The notes under the pieces were generated by a model. The model was given only the letters and a program-made list of their open reading frames with translations, was not told the DNA's origin and did not search any database. A program made the position numbers and the translations under genes. Source: Fimbriimonadaceae bacterium (lineage in GTDB: Bacteria > Armatimonadota > Fimbriimonadia > Fimbriimonadales > Fimbriimonadaceae). Taken from it: a DNA stretch of 46,477 nt. The stretch is from positions 1-46,477 of the forward strand of contig JAHBTC010000008.1 of the NCBI GenBank assembly GCA_019638835.1, given 5' to 3'. Of the stretch, positions 3,821 through 9,626 are shown piece after piece. The stretch's first letter is position 1, and every line of letters begins with the position of its first letter.

Positions 3821-4207
3821 CTATTCCCGTGTCGCATCAAACCATCGCACGACCAAGTCGGTCAGGATCAACCGTTTCTCATTCACTTCGTCTACGCTGT
3901 GGATCCCCAGAGTCGCCCGGTCGGTGCCTGCCCACCGCATCAACCCCGAAGCGTCTTCAAACGAGAACGCCGAGTCTTTCTTTTTTACGCCCCGGTGGAA
4001 GACGAGCAAGACCTGATCTTTCTTATGAAAATTCATTGTCAGTCGGTCATCGCCGTCAATGCAGAAACTGGGCGCGTTCCATTTCACGTTCTCGGTGATG
4101 TCGCTGCGGGCCGCATGTATCAGTTCGCGAAGTGCGACAATCTCGGATTTCAGAGGGTGTTTGAGCCCGGAGAGGAACGCATCAACCGATTCATCGCGGG
4201 TGCCCAT
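3821..4207 (-). CDS. DUF1801 (YdhG-like) domain protein
   Basis: 128 residues that fit the DUF1801 fold in order: SVDAFLSGLKHPLKSEIVALRELI, ENVKWNAPSFCIDGDDRLTMNF, and LVFHRG. The C-terminus is an amphipathic helix. Members are small soluble proteins of unknown biochemical role. The ATG at 4207 has a TACCAT box about 8 nt upstream and only a weak AGG as ribosome site. The 124 bp between this gene's stop and the ATP-grasp start hold nothing recognisable beyond that gene's -10 box. Confidence 0.8.
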   Translation of the reverse strand: MGTRDESVDAFLSGLKHPLKSEIVALRELIHAARSDITENVKWNAPSFCIDGDDRLTMNFHKKDQVLLVFHRGVKKKDSAFSFEDASGLMRWAGTDRATLGIHSVDEVNEKRLILTDLVVRWFDATRE

Positions 4208-4245
4208 AACCTGCTATGGTACCGGGCACCGACGAATCAACCCTT

Positions 4246-6174
4246 TTAGCTGCCCGAAACCGGGTCGGCCACCGATTGCGCGGCGTCGGACTCCAAGAAA
4301 TCCTCACCCATCAGTTTCTTGACGATTGAAATCTGGTTTACCTTGTATTTGCGCGCTCTCGGGGCGATGTAGTTGACCTCAACTTTCTCGTCCAAATTGA
4401 ACTGCGGCTCGCCATCCGTCCACGTTGCTTTTGTTGTAACCAGCCAACGATCATCGTCTCGCTCCGGCGTGTCCATCTTAAAGTGTGCCCCTCTCGACTC
4501 GTTTCGGATGATCGCGCCTCCGACAATCGCCTTTGACATTTCAATCATATGGTGAACCGATCGGATGTACGGAATGGTTTGGTTGCTCCATGCACCGGCG
4601 TCAATAACGGCGCAGTTCTTTGCGCGCGACGAGAGATCATTCAACGCGTCTTTGGCCGAGAGCAAGTCGCTCTGCTTGCGCCAGATTCCGCAATTGTTCC
4701 ACATCAGTTCGGCAAGGTCCGCTTGCAGTTGGTACGGATTCTCGCTTCCATTGGGGTTCGCCAATGCCGCATAAGCCGATTCGTGCTTCGCCTTGCCCTC
4801 ATCTAACGCCGCCGAACCAACATCTTCGGACCCGGCTTCCATATCACGCAGATAGGCTTGGATGCCAAGCGCCGCGAGTTCGCCTCCTGTGAGGCAGGAG
4901 AGTAAAGCGTTCGCCCCCAATCGGTTGGCGCCGTGGTACTGGTAATCCGCTTCGCCTGCCGCATAGAGGCCGGCAATGCTTGTCATCTGATTGCGAGGAC
5001 TCTCTACGTCCAGCGCAGCCCCATCGGCTCCCTTCTCGTAATCGACCCAAAGGCCGCCCATCGTGTAGTGGTTTGCCGGGTAGATCCGCATCGGGTTGTC
5101 AATCGGATCTTCGCGCATGAATTTCTCGTAAATCTCGAGAACACCGCCAAGCTTGTCGTTGATCAATTCGCGGCTCATGCCTTTCTCGCGGTGCAAGTGA
5201 CCGATATCCAGGAAAACCTGTTGCTTGCCCTTTACGCCGCGACCCATCCGGCACACGCAATAGATGATAAAGGAAACGATATCTCGGCTTAACAGATTGC
5301 CGTAGACCGGATCAAGTTCTTCGCACACATACCACCGATCCGCATCCGGGATGCTGGAAGGATGGCGACTATCCATGGGGTCGCGGGGAACCCAAACCCT
5401 GCCGCCCTCGCCCCGAACCGACTCGCTCATTAGTCGGCACTTGTCTTCACCGGGGATCGCGGTGGGGTGAATCTGAACCATCTCGGGGTTACCGTAGACC
5501 GCACCGGCCTGATAAGCGATGCTGACCGGCTCACCCGTATTGATGATTGAGTTCGTTGTGCGACCGAAGATGACCCCGTTTCCACCGGAACAGATACAGA
5601 CTGCGTCAGCGGCGAACGACTCGATCTTCATCGTCCGCAAATCTTGAGCAACGATGCCACGACACCGCCCCTGGGAATCCTTGATCACATCCAGGAGAGT
5701 CCAGCCTTCAAACTTTTGAACGGTTCGACTTGCCTCGTGCCGGCGTACTTGCTCGTCGAGAGCATAGAGTAGCTGCTGTCCCGTCGTCGCGCCCGCGTAA
5801 GCAGTGCGATGTTTGAGTGTTCCACCGAAGCGACGGAAGGACAGCAATCCTTCAGCAGTCCGATTAAACGGAACCCCCATACGGTCGAGGAGATAGATCA
5901 TTGCTGGAGCACGCTCGGCCATCCGCATGACGGGCGGCTGGTGGTTCAAGAAGTCGCCCCCGGTAATCGTGTCTTCAAAGTGAAGGAAGGGAGAATCGCC
6001 TTCGCCGCGCAGGTTCACGGCACCATTGATGCCCCCTTGCGCGCACACGCTATGGCTCCGTTTGACGGGCACTAGACTGAACAGTTGAACCTTGTGTCCG
6101 GCCTCGGCTAACTTCATAGTGGTCATGAGCCCTGCGAGGCCACCGCCGACGACAATCACCGTGCGTTGAGGCAT
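4246..6174 (-). CDS. sdhA: Succinate dehydrogenase/fumarate reductase flavoprotein subunit
   Basis: 642 residues. Start ATG 6174 has AGGAAG 6 nt upstream; the open frame beyond it to 6300 is not used. The FAD dinucleotide fold is at residues 6-35 (VVGGGLAGLMTT). His41 in RSHSVCAQGGING is the conserved residue for covalent FAD. The substrate site includes QIHPTAIPG, SVRGEGGRVW and NHYTMGGLWVDYE, and the FAD clamp is LYAAGEADYQYHGANRLGANALLSC. Length and motifs fit the type found in Bacteroides- and Bacillus-like class B enzymes. Oddly, no iron-sulfur (sdhB) or membrane (sdhC) gene is adjacent on either side, so the other subunits must be elsewhere. Confidence 0.9.
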   Translation of the reverse strand: MPQRTVIVVGGGLAGLMTTMKLAEAGHKVQLFSLVPVKRSHSVCAQGGINGAVNLRGEGDSPFLHFEDTITGGDFLNHQPPVMRMAERAPAMIYLLDRMGVPFNRTAEGLLSFRRFGGTLKHRTAYAGATTGQQLLYALDEQVRRHEASRTVQKFEGWTLLDVIKDSQGRCRGIVAQDLRTMKIESFAADAVCICSGGNGVIFGRTTNSIINTGEPVSIAYQAGAVYGNPEMVQIHPTAIPGEDKCRLMSESVRGEGGRVWVPRDPMDSRHPSSIPDADRWYVCEELDPVYGNLLSRDIVSFIIYCVCRMGRGVKGKQQVFLDIGHLHREKGMSRELINDKLGGVLEIYEKFMREDPIDNPMRIYPANHYTMGGLWVDYEKGADGAALDVESPRNQMTSIAGLYAAGEADYQYHGANRLGANALLSCLTGGELAALGIQAYLRDMEAGSEDVGSAALDEGKAKHESAYAALANPNGSENPYQLQADLAELMWNNCGIWRKQSDLLSAKDALNDLSSRAKNCAVIDAGAWSNQTIPYIRSVHHMIEMSKAIVGGAIIRNESRGAHFKMDTPERDDDRWLVTTKATWTDGEPQFNLDEKVEVNYIAPRARKYKVNQISIVKKLMGEDFLESDAAQSVADPVSGS

Positions 6175-6300
6175 GAATATCTTCCTGTACGCGAGTGTAC
6201 CGAACGAGTTTGCGAAGGCCCGGTGAAAGAGAAATCCCGGTATCGAACTCAAGCAATTCGCGCGGAAACTTAGGCAGAATAGTTTGTTCTTGGTGTGCAA

Positions 6301-7518
6301 ATGAGAGTATTCGGACTAGTCTTGTTCCTGACGGCAACCGTCGGGTTATCGGCCCAATCAGGTTGGGCAAGGTATCGGTTGGTAGTCAATTCCCCGGACC
6401 AAGCGCAACGGTTAGTGGACTCTGACATCGGGCTCTTTTCCGAACGAGTAGCGGTCGGTACAACCGACGTTTACATCGGGCCCGACGAGATGTATAAGCT
6501 TTGGGCACTCGGAATGCCCTATCGTAAGGTTTCGGAGTTGCCAGATCCGGCGGGTTGGGATCAGCGTTACAGCAACAAGACGCTGAACTACCGGGGCAAC
6601 TACTACCGCTACGACGACATCATCGCGCAATACGAAGAGTGGCGCATTCAGAATCCAACTCACGTCAAGCGATTCCAAATCGGAACCAGCATTTTGGGGC
6701 GACCGATTTGGGCATACAGCGTTCGGAGCAATGCACTTTTCAGTGGTGCGCGACGCTCATTCGTTGTGAACTGTGGCATTCACGCTAGAGAGTGGATTTC
6801 GCCGGCGATTGGGATGTACGTCTTTAAGAAGACGATTGATAGTGCGGCCATTGGCTTCGCCGATATGACGACCGACTTCAGCAAGCGAGCAATGCTTCGG
6901 GGATCAACCTTCTACTTTGTCCCGGTCAATAACCCCGATGGTTACGAGTACTGCTGGACGAACAACCGGATGTGGCGCAAGAACCGCCGCGATAACCCCG
7001 GCAGTTCGTACGGAGTCGACCTCAATCGCAACTTCGCGAAAGCGTGGGGCGGATCGGGTTCCAGTGGTAACTACAGTTCGGAGACTTATCGGGGCACGGC
7101 TCCCTTTAGCGAACCCGAGTCTCAGGCCCTCGTATTCCTAGCCAATCGGATTCCTCGTATGGACGCATTCATTGACTTCCATAGCTACGGCGAGTACGTC
7201 CTATGGCCATGGAGCTACACGACCGCGAATGCTCCGGGGCAATCATGGCTCGCAACGACCGGGCTGGCAATGAAGAACGCAATTCAGGCGACCCACGGTC
7301 ACGCCTATACGTACGGTCACAGTGGTCAGACGCTGTATCTTGCTGCGGGAGTCACAGACGATTACTTCTATGACCTCTATAACACAGCGGCGTACACCAT
7401 TGAACTGCGAGATACGGGCCAAAACGGTTTTCTACTTCCGGAGAGTCAGATCAGCGACACGCAAGACGAGGCTTGGGCAGGATTTGTGGCCCTTGCCGTT
7501 CGCATGACGAATCGTTAG
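6301..7518 (+). CDS. Secreted M14 zinc carboxypeptidase, copy 1 (Asp at specificity site)
   Basis: 405 residues with a signal peptide (residues 1-18, ending LSAQ). The N-terminal 80 residues may be a short pro-region. The catalytic domain has zinc ligands His161 and Glu164 in CGIHAREWISP and His294 in DFHSYGE, Asn242-Arg243 in VDLNRNF, and the general base Glu368 in YTIELRDTGQNGFLLP. Counting back 15 residues from Glu368 puts Asp353 at the position called 255 in pancreatic carboxypeptidases, where Asp favours C-terminal Lys/Arg. The start was chosen because it aligns base for base with copy 2; GTG 6295 is an alternative. Residues about 80-247 are nearly identical in DNA to copy 2. Confidence 0.9.
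   Translation: MRVFGLVLFLTATVGLSAQSGWARYRLVVNSPDQAQRLVDSDIGLFSERVAVGTTDVYIGPDEMYKLWALGMPYRKVSELPDPAGWDQRYSNKTLNYRGNYYRYDDIIAQYEEWRIQNPTHVKRFQIGTSILGRPIWAYSVRSNALFSGARRSFVVNCGIHAREWISPAIGMYVFKKTIDSAAIGFADMTTDFSKRAMLRGSTFYFVPVNNPDGYEYCWTNNRMWRKNRRDNPGSSYGVDLNRNFAKAWGGSGSSGNYSSETYRGTAPFSEPESQALVFLANRIPRMDAFIDFHSYGEYVLWPWSYTTANAPGQSWLATTGLAMKNAIQATHGHAYTYGHSGQTLYLAAGVTDDYFYDLYNTAAYTIELRDTGQNGFLLPESQISDTQDEAWAGFVALAVRMTNR
6538..7042 (+). repeat. Homogenised tract shared with 7833-8337 (copy 1)
   Basis: This 505-bp stretch matches 7833-8337 at a constant offset of 1295 bp with only two differences that I can find (6808 A versus 8103 G, and 7023 C versus 8318 T). Flanking parts of the two genes are clearly more diverged, which points to recent gene conversion. 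Confidence 0.9.
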
Positions 7519-7540
7519 ATTGGGGAAAAACTAGTATGCG

Positions 7541-7560
7541 TCCCCGTGCAATGACGGGGA
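7541..7560 (+). terminator. Hairpin between the two carboxypeptidase genes
   Basis: TCCCCGT (7541-7547) pairs with ACGGGGA (7554-7560) around a 6-nt loop, 22 bp after the stop of copy 1. No U-run follows, so it may be a weak terminator or an RNA-stability hairpin. Confidence 0.35.
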
Positions 7561-7573
7561 ATTGTAGGGCAGA

Positions 7574-7597
7574 ATGAGAACCCAAAGAGGTTCTCAT
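7574..7597 (+). promoter_or_regulatory. Hairpin covering the ribosome site and start codon of carboxypeptidase copy 2
   Basis: ATGAGAACC (7574-7582) pairs perfectly with GGTTCTCAT (7589-7597) around loop CAAAGA. The AGAGG ribosome site is split between loop and stem, and the first two bases of the ATG at 7596 are paired. Such a structure could limit translation initiation. Confidence 0.45.
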
Positions 7598-8813
7598 GCG
7601 ATCCATCTCTGCCCTTTGTCTCTTCGCCTTGGTTTCATCATCCTTTGCCCAAGCGGATTGGACTCGATACCGATTAACCGTTCGTGATGCGATTGAGGCT
7701 CAGCGCCTTTCAGACTCTGACGTCACCCTTTTTTCTGATGACGTCGTAATCGGATCTACCGATGTTGTCATTGGCCCAGGCGAGCAGTTCAAGTTGTGGG
7801 CACTCGGTATGCCCTACCAACGCATCGCCACTTTGCCAGATCCGGCGGGTTGGGATCAGCGTTACAGCAACAAGACGCTGAACTACCGGGGCAACTACTA
7901 CCGCTACGACGACATCATCGCGCAATACGAAGAGTGGCGCATTCAGAATCCAACTCACGTCAAGCGATTCCAAATCGGAACCAGCATTTTGGGGCGACCG
8001 ATTTGGGCATACAGCGTTCGGAGCAATGCACTTTTCAGTGGTGCGCGACGCTCATTCGTTGTGAACTGTGGCATTCACGCTAGAGAGTGGATTTCGCCGG
8101 CGGTTGGGATGTACGTCTTTAAGAAGACGATTGATAGTGCGGCCATTGGCTTCGCCGATATGACGACCGACTTCAGCAAGCGAGCAATGCTTCGGGGATC
8201 AACCTTCTACTTTGTCCCGGTCAATAACCCCGATGGTTACGAGTACTGCTGGACGAACAACCGGATGTGGCGCAAGAACCGCCGCGATAACCCCGGCAGT
8301 TCGTACGGAGTCGACCTTAATCGCAACTTCGCGAAAGGCTGGGGGGGAGCAGGTTCCAGTGGTAACTACAGTTCGGAGACGTATCGGGGCACGGCTCCCT
8401 TTAGCGAACCCGAGTCGCAGGCTCTCGTATTCCTCGAAAATCGAGTCCCGAGAATCGATGCCTTTATTGATTTCCACAGTTACGGCGAAAAGATCCTCTG
8501 GCCATGGACTTACACGGAGACTCCGCCAGCCGGAAGCGCTTGGTTGAATGCCAGCAGTATCGCGATGCGCGATGCAGGCGCGGCGACACACGGGCATCAA
8601 TACACGGCAGGGCAAGGAAGCACAACGCTTTATATCGCTTCCGGAACCACGAAGGACTACTTCTACGACAGATCCAACGCGGCGGCTTATACGATCGAGT
8701 TACGGGACACGGGCCAAAACGGTTTCCTTCTGCCGGAAGCTCAGATCAGCGACACACAAGACGAAGCTTGGGCAATGTTCGTAGCGCTTGCTGTCCGCAT
8801 GACGAACCGCTAG
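7596..8813 (+). CDS. Secreted M14 zinc carboxypeptidase, copy 2 (Lys at specificity site)
   Basis: 405 residues, same length as copy 1 and aligned with it without any gap at an offset of 1295 bp. The signal peptide is residues 1-19 (ending SSFAQA). All catalytic residues are kept: His161, Glu164, Asn242-Arg243, His294 and Glu368. The residue 15 before the catalytic Glu is Lys353 (codon AAG at 8652-8654) where copy 1 has Asp. In the M14A family a basic residue at this place, as in carboxypeptidase O, goes with preference for acidic C-terminal residues. The ribosome site AGAGG lies 5 nt before the ATG inside a hairpin. The gene converges with folE2. Confidence 0.9.
   Translation: MRSISALCLFALVSSSFAQADWTRYRLTVRDAIEAQRLSDSDVTLFSDDVVIGSTDVVIGPGEQFKLWALGMPYQRIATLPDPAGWDQRYSNKTLNYRGNYYRYDDIIAQYEEWRIQNPTHVKRFQIGTSILGRPIWAYSVRSNALFSGARRSFVVNCGIHAREWISPAVGMYVFKKTIDSAAIGFADMTTDFSKRAMLRGSTFYFVPVNNPDGYEYCWTNNRMWRKNRRDNPGSSYGVDLNRNFAKGWGGAGSSGNYSSETYRGTAPFSEPESQALVFLENRVPRIDAFIDFHSYGEKILWPWTYTETPPAGSAWLNASSIAMRDAGAATHGHQYTAGQGSTTLYIASGTTKDYFYDRSNAAAYTIELRDTGQNGFLLPEAQISDTQDEAWAMFVALAVRMTNR
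7833..8337 (+). repeat. Homogenised tract shared with 6538-7042 (copy 2)
   Basis: Partner of the tract in copy 1. It encodes residues about 80-247, including the first two zinc ligands and the substrate-binding Asn-Arg pair. It stops before the third zinc ligand, the specificity pocket and the catalytic Glu. Confidence 0.9.
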
Positions 8814-8822
8814 TGAACTGCT

Positions 8823-8850
8823 GGCCCGGACTACTTATTTAGTTCGGGCC
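8823..8850. terminator. Convergent hairpin between carboxypeptidase copy 2 and folE2
   Basis: GGCCCGGACT (8823-8832) pairs with AGTTCGGGCC (8841-8850), ten pairs with one G-U, around an 8-nt loop. It overlaps the last codons of folE2. No U-run is present on either strand, but the position between two converging stops fits a bidirectional terminator. Confidence 0.5.
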
Positions 8851-9626
8851 AAATACGCATATGCGTTATGAGCGTGGATCGACTCTTCATTCTCGACCTC
8901 TATCTCGTACGCGTCGATTCTTGAATCACCATCGAAGGCCAATGCAACCTCTCGGACCATGTCTTCGACGAACCGGGGATTCTCGTAAGCCGTCTCCGTC
9001 ACCCACTTCTCATCGGGTCGCTTAAGTACGGGGAACAGTGCGCAAGACGCCGACGATTCGATCATGTCGATCAAGTCTTCTAGCCAGACGAAGTCGTTTG
9101 TCTTGACTCTAGTAGTCACCCAGCCTCGTTGGTTGTGCGCGCCGTACTGACTGATCTCTTTACTGCACGGGCAAAGCGTTGCGACGGGGACTCGCACATA
9201 CATCGTCAAATCGAAGTGGCCATTGGCCGTGGCGTCGAATCCACACTCGAACTCCATCATCCCCGTCTTCTTTGTGACCGGGGCCGCTTTCTCAACAAAG
9301 AATGGAAACCGTACTTCAATGTGCGCCTCTTTGGCCGTCAGTCTTTCCGTCAACGCCTTCAACAGATCGGGAAGCTTGTGCACGTTGATCTCGCGACCGT
9401 AGACGTTGAGTACCTCTAGGAATCGGCTCATGTGGGTTCCCTTGAACTCCTTCGGTAAGTTCACGGTAAGCGTGAAATTGCCAATGGTGTGTTGTCGTTC
9501 TTGGCTTCGGTCTAGAACCTCAATCGGAAACTTGACCCCACGCACCCCCACTTTGTCGATGGGAATGTTCCGGGTGTCCTGGGTTTTCTGGATATCCGGT
9601 AACGGGGAGTTCGTTCGATCGCTCAT
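8835..9626 (-). CDS. folE2: GTP cyclohydrolase I type 2 (FolE2)
   Basis: 263 residues, the usual length of this family. It converts GTP to 7,8-dihydroneopterin triphosphate, the first step of tetrahydrofolate and queuosine-precursor synthesis. FolE2 enzymes can work without zinc. Seen motifs: DKVGVRGVKFPIEV near residue 25, FKGTHMSRFLEVL near 61, and the signature CPCSKEISQYGAHNQRG at 152-168. C-terminal SSASCALFPVLKRPDEKWVT also fits. A weak GAGAAAG lies just before the ATG and a CATACT box sits about 22 nt upstream, so this transcript may have a short leader. No Zur-like operator was recognised. Confidence 0.95.
   Translation of the reverse strand: MSDRTNSPLPDIQKTQDTRNIPIDKVGVRGVKFPIEVLDRSQERQHTIGNFTLTVNLPKEFKGTHMSRFLEVLNVYGREINVHKLPDLLKALTERLTAKEAHIEVRFPFFVEKAAPVTKKTGMMEFECGFDATANGHFDLTMYVRVPVATLCPCSKEISQYGAHNQRGWVTTRVKTNDFVWLEDLIDMIESSASCALFPVLKRPDEKWVTETAYENPRFVEDMVREVALAFDGDSRIDAYEIEVENEESIHAHNAYAYLARTK

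Follow-up and report, generated by a model that had tools for sequence, protein, structure and literature searches.

A tandem pair of bacterial M14A carboxypeptidase genes with a homogenised catalytic half and opposite charges at specificity position 255

Two adjacent genes of a Fimbriimonadaceae bacterium, found in a window of 46,477 nucleotides (the whole stretch of DNA analysed, contig JAHBTC010000008.1), appear to encode a B-type and an O-type carboxypeptidase in one bacterium, with a converted core and a diverged pocket half. We hold this reading of the tandem M14A pair with moderate confidence. Taken singly, and by analogy with characterised enzymes, the first copy (CP1) is quite likely B-type, and with a little less assurance the second (CP2) is probably acid-preferring. 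Given their opposite pocket charges, CP1 probably clips basic and CP2 acidic amino acids. The pair is a bacterial addition to the already known M14A family and contains a natural experiment. The acid-specific M14A enzymes that we found described in the literature are animal only, and no literature was found on metallocarboxypeptidases with Lys255. A bacterial set of Lys255 enzymes, together with a natural pair of near-identical catalytic half and opposite pocket charge, offers a clean test of one-residue specificity, and the pair is also a system for how conversion and divergence coexist inside one gene. The Lys255 enzymes are potential tools to trim C-terminal Glu/Asp.

The two genes and their residue at position 255

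CP1 (6301..7518) and CP2 (7596..8813) lie on the + strand, 77 bases apart, and each encodes a putative secreted pro-carboxypeptidase of 405 amino acids with a Peptidase_M14 domain (Pfam PF00246, E 2.8e-76 and 5.3e-75, scores well over the cut-off). The length of CP1 is counted from its ATG; an alternative start is the GTG at 6295. A signal peptide was judged by eye to be present at the N-terminus of both, and neither copy has lost any of the catalytic and carboxylate-binding residues (zinc site HxxE...H, Arg127, Asn144, Arg145, Tyr248 and Glu270). By sequence, the two are M14A metallocarboxypeptidases of the PF00246 family, which would share the zinc/Glu270 mechanism and are predicted to be exported scavengers of peptides.

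The pair is flanked by a succinate dehydrogenase/fumarate reductase flavoprotein gene (sdhA) and folE2 on the other strand. These genes stand together in the window at 4246-9626, whereas in congeners the single carboxypeptidase gene, sdhA and folE2 are far apart; conserved synteny was therefore rejected, and the neighbourhood is peculiar to the source genome. The spacer carries a hairpin (GAGAACC-CAAAGA-GGTTCTC, 7576..7595, + strand) directly 5' of the CP2 start, with a ribosome-site-like AAAGAGG partly inside its loop, and the region 7519-7615 has a folding energy of -40 kcal/mol (z -4.26). No counterpart of this hairpin was found upstream of CP1, and scans for promoters and terminators gave no signal above chance. 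From the predicted fold, control of CP2 expression by the hairpin is possible.

The preliminary description had placed Asp353 (GAC, 7357..7359) in CP1 and Lys353 (AAG, 8652..8654) in CP2, both on the + strand, and had equated residue 353 with position 255 of the pancreatic enzymes. The coordinates and codons proved exact, with the catalytic Glu of IELRDTG following 15 residues later, and the numbering was borne out by a gap-free HMMER alignment to solved CPB and CPB2 up to Glu270. Residue 353 of both copies (355 in CP1 when counted from the GTG) falls on CPB Asp255, between the invariant Gly252 and Asp256, and the anchors Tyr248, Gly252, Asp256 and Glu270 are joined with zero gaps between them. 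The chain of the CPO structure 5mrv reads ASSGSSRDW there, with Arg at position 255.

Position 255 is a recognised specificity position, and the assignment of Lys/Arg to Asp255 and of Glu/Asp to a basic residue, as in CPO, is backed by published work (PMC9925722, PMC8605224, PMC6937156). Asp255 goes with basic, a hydrophobic residue with A-type and Arg255 with acidic preference, within an S1' set of positions 203, 207, 243, 247, 253, 255 and 268 (PMC9925722). The pocket of CP1 holds Leu203, Ser207, Ser243, Val253, Thr254, Asp255 and Thr268, and that of CP2 Leu203, Thr207, Gly243, Thr253, Thr254, Lys255 and Thr268. Position 243, 12 residues before 255, is Ser in the S1' wall of CP1 (7321..7323, + strand) and Gly in CP2 (8616..8618, + strand). 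Val253 of CP1, which is Gly in CPB, could narrow the B-type pocket. Between codons 283 and 405 the two proteins differ at 36 residues, and residue 353 is the only one with an acid/base reversal; a single reversal placed randomly among the 36 differences would fall there with a chance of ~1/36.

The AlphaFold models of CP1 and CP2 were built with only three sequences in the alignment and reached a mean pLDDT of 55. The pLDDT was ~40 at the loop of residue 353 in both models, so that the pocket placement of this residue rests on the gap-free homology. Within these poor models, residues 20-80 form a beta-alpha-beta-alpha-beta pro-domain at pLDDT about 65-85. A Foldseek search with one of the models, which given its quality speaks to the M14 fold only, gave pro-CPB entries as top fold matches; a T262S mutant of carboxypeptidase T was among the entries.

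Homogenisation of the catalytic half by gene conversion

The earlier proposal that conversion keeps the shared core alike was confirmed: the catalytic halves of CP1 and CP2 have been homogenised by recent gene conversion. The core of CP1 (6538..7022, + strand) is the same as that of CP2 (7833..8317, + strand) except at 6808 (Ile/Val). In codons 80-240 none of 104 synonymous sites differs and there is a single replacement, against ~0.80 differences per synonymous site (saturated) in both flanks, codons 1-79 and 283-405; codons 241-282 are intermediate (0.29). Such a stretch, with almost no synonymous divergence amid flanks that are saturated, marks the two as a gene-converted pair. The run of 150 identical codons for the same amino acids was equalled in 0 of 100,000 shuffles, and the homogenised core is also seen in the segment identities. 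Purifying selection on the protein would not account for a core with 0 synonymous differences; recent conversion would. The sharp left edge and stepped right edge of the tract suggest more than one conversion event.

The tract includes His69, Glu72 and Arg127 and ends just before Asn144/Arg145 (residues 242-243), which are the same in CP1 and CP2. Residues 203-268, which form the pocket, are not part of it, either through selection guarding the pocket or because the tract happens to stop there.

An identical core could also come from a draft assembly that wrote one consensus for two repeats, and the source assembly (2.74 Mb) has 207 contigs, with a repeat here of ~485 bases. There is, however, a real difference within the tract (6808/8103), a collapse would not create the intermediate zone of codons 241-282, and both reading frames are intact; we regard an artefact as very improbable.

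Under the favoured reading of a B-type and an O-type enzyme, a duplication in the source lineage would have given two tandem secreted M14A genes, whose catalytic half recent conversion has homogenised while the S1' half remained diverged (Asp255/Ser243 versus Lys255/Gly243). Converted alleles that erased the pocket difference would have been eliminated by selection. CP1 would take off C-terminal Arg/Lys and CP2 C-terminal Glu/Asp, perhaps also polar residues, so that together the two would trim extracellular peptides more broadly for nutrition.

Position 255 among relatives in Armatimonadota

At position 255, 42 homologues from the phylum carry Lys (10), Thr (9), Val (6), Asn (5), Pro (4), Met (3), Asp (2), Leu (2) or Cys (1). 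Lys255 is thus recurrent across Armatimonadota, and the unusual copy of the pair is the Asp one (2/42). Pro255 occurs in four relatives (L004, L005, L020 and L041), the two congeners have a single carboxypeptidase gene with Pro255, and no described specificity for Pro255 was found in the literature. In a survey meant to reach beyond the phylum, a single scan of genome contigs returned one relative, and six plasmid homologues from other phyla have Thr, Asp, Ile or Arg at the aligned position, where the alignment is weak.

Ser, Thr or Ala at position 207 accompanies Lys255 in 10 of 10 enzymes and is found in 5 of the 32 others (Fisher 2e-6, a value that ignores kinship and for which Ala was added to the grouping post hoc); on independent branches at most five cases favour the link and none oppose it, a number too small for significance (sign test p >= 0.06). 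Gly243 is present in 6/10 Lys255 enzymes versus 1/32 others. On the tree, position 255 underwent at least 18 state changes, a variability that ~18% of columns equal, and at least 8 changes between Lys and non-Lys. The company of Ser/Thr/Ala207 and the repeated switching between Lys and non-Lys fit a functional pocket state. Only Lys255 enzymes carry a charge, as Lys or Glu, at position 201 (6/10 versus 0/32); in CP2 the residue is Lys299 (8490-8492), at CPA position 201, outside the named S1' residues.

Since position 255 is labile, part of the difference between CP1 and CP2 could be drift. In its full form this would mean that both enzymes are broad, like carboxypeptidase T, and that the charge reversal has little effect. 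The number of state changes on the tree and the share of equally variable columns agree with it. Thr262 of carboxypeptidase T, at what we take to be the equivalent of position 255, is uncharged. That enzyme is broad in specificity (PMC6937156), and in fungi almost any residue is found at position 255 (PMC7706225). Drift of this kind is nevertheless improbable, as Lys255 co-occurs with Ser/Thr/Ala207 and Gly243, the neighbouring Asp256, Gly252 and Tyr248 are almost fixed, and one whole clade has kept Thr or a hydrophobic residue at 255 throughout.

In all three genomes with two copies (that of the window, G008 and G155), one enzyme has Lys255 and its partner does not; in G008 the partner has Val255. 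The G155 pair (locus L041, G155:C2) is also tandem, on the complement of 4152-5279 and 5904-7079: one copy combines Lys255 with Ser in place of Tyr248, and its neighbour has Pro255. CP1 and CP2 are sisters in both halves, next to the congeners. An origin as old paralogues orthologous to different relatives was rejected, as both halves group the copies together, and the likeliest order is a duplication in the source lineage first and the split into Asp and Lys afterwards. Because Lys255 is found in the next outgroup (G012, G156), Lys may be the ancestral and Asp the derived state. A more general scheme, which we put forward tentatively and consider rather doubtful, is that the S1' pocket of Armatimonadota M14A enzymes is a switchable module: duplications would each yield a Lys255 acid-cutter and a partner of other specificity, with conversion maintaining the catalytic half and the pocket half escaping.

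Comparison with described carboxypeptidases

CP1 shares the pair Asp255 and Ser243 with the mosquito enzyme CPBAe1, whose wild type (Asp251 and Ser239 in its own numbering) acts on Arg and Lys but leaves Phe uncleaved; altering both residues in that enzyme changes Arg cleavage (PMC8605224). CP1 resembles pancreatic and insect CPB in Asp255, the catalytic residues and, as modelled, the pro-domain, with Ser207 as in human CPB and Ser243 as in insect CPB. It differs in having Val253 for Gly253, in being bacterial, and in its identity of about a third in the catalytic domain.

CP2 resembles human CPO (PDB 5mrv) and Xenopus Cpo.1 in the basic residue at 255, Leu203, Tyr248 and Glu270. Cpo.1, with Arg255, cleaves a Glu substrate and not Ala or Phe substrates (PMC9925722). 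In the CPO pocket the residues are Gly207, Ser243, Ser250 and Ser253, whereas CP2 has Thr207, Gly243, Ala250 and Thr253, and its pocket shares with CPO the charge at 255 alone. CP2 may function like CPO by its sequence, yet it is not classed as CPO. Most CPO are without a pro-domain (PMC9925722), unlike CP2 as modelled. Counting against our reading of the pair, the solved acid-specific enzyme carries Arg, not Lys, at 255.

CP1 could be B-type and CP2 other than acid-specific, with a polar pocket (Lys255, Gly243 and Thr207) favouring Ala, Ser, Thr or Gln and the Lys neutralised or extended away. CPO too cleaves polar residues (PMC6214572), Xenopus CPO paralogues with Gln or Cys255 are broad or Ala-preferring (PMC9925722), and the charged residue at 201, Glu included, might pair with Lys255. 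We consider a polar pocket unlikely, though likelier than drift, because acid preference is by general agreement set by a basic residue at 255, and in Xenopus the paralogue with Arg255 cleaved the Glu substrate only (PMC9925722).

An acid-preferring CP2 can be likened to the digestive glutamate-specific carboxypeptidase of Helicoverpa armigera (Bown and Gatehouse 2004) by that enzyme's preference for C-terminal Glu, as cited in PMC8605224. Carboxypeptidase T of Thermoactinomyces (PDB 1obr) is also a bacterial M14 relative of CPA and CPB; it has the broad specificity noted above and matches CP1 and CP2 more weakly than CPB does. In fish and Xenopus, CPO genes have been duplicated repeatedly (PMC9925722), and with CP1 and CP2 they have in common duplication, change at 255 and signs of gene conversion. 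They differ in being vertebrate, and no Asp255/Lys255 pair with a common converted core is described there.
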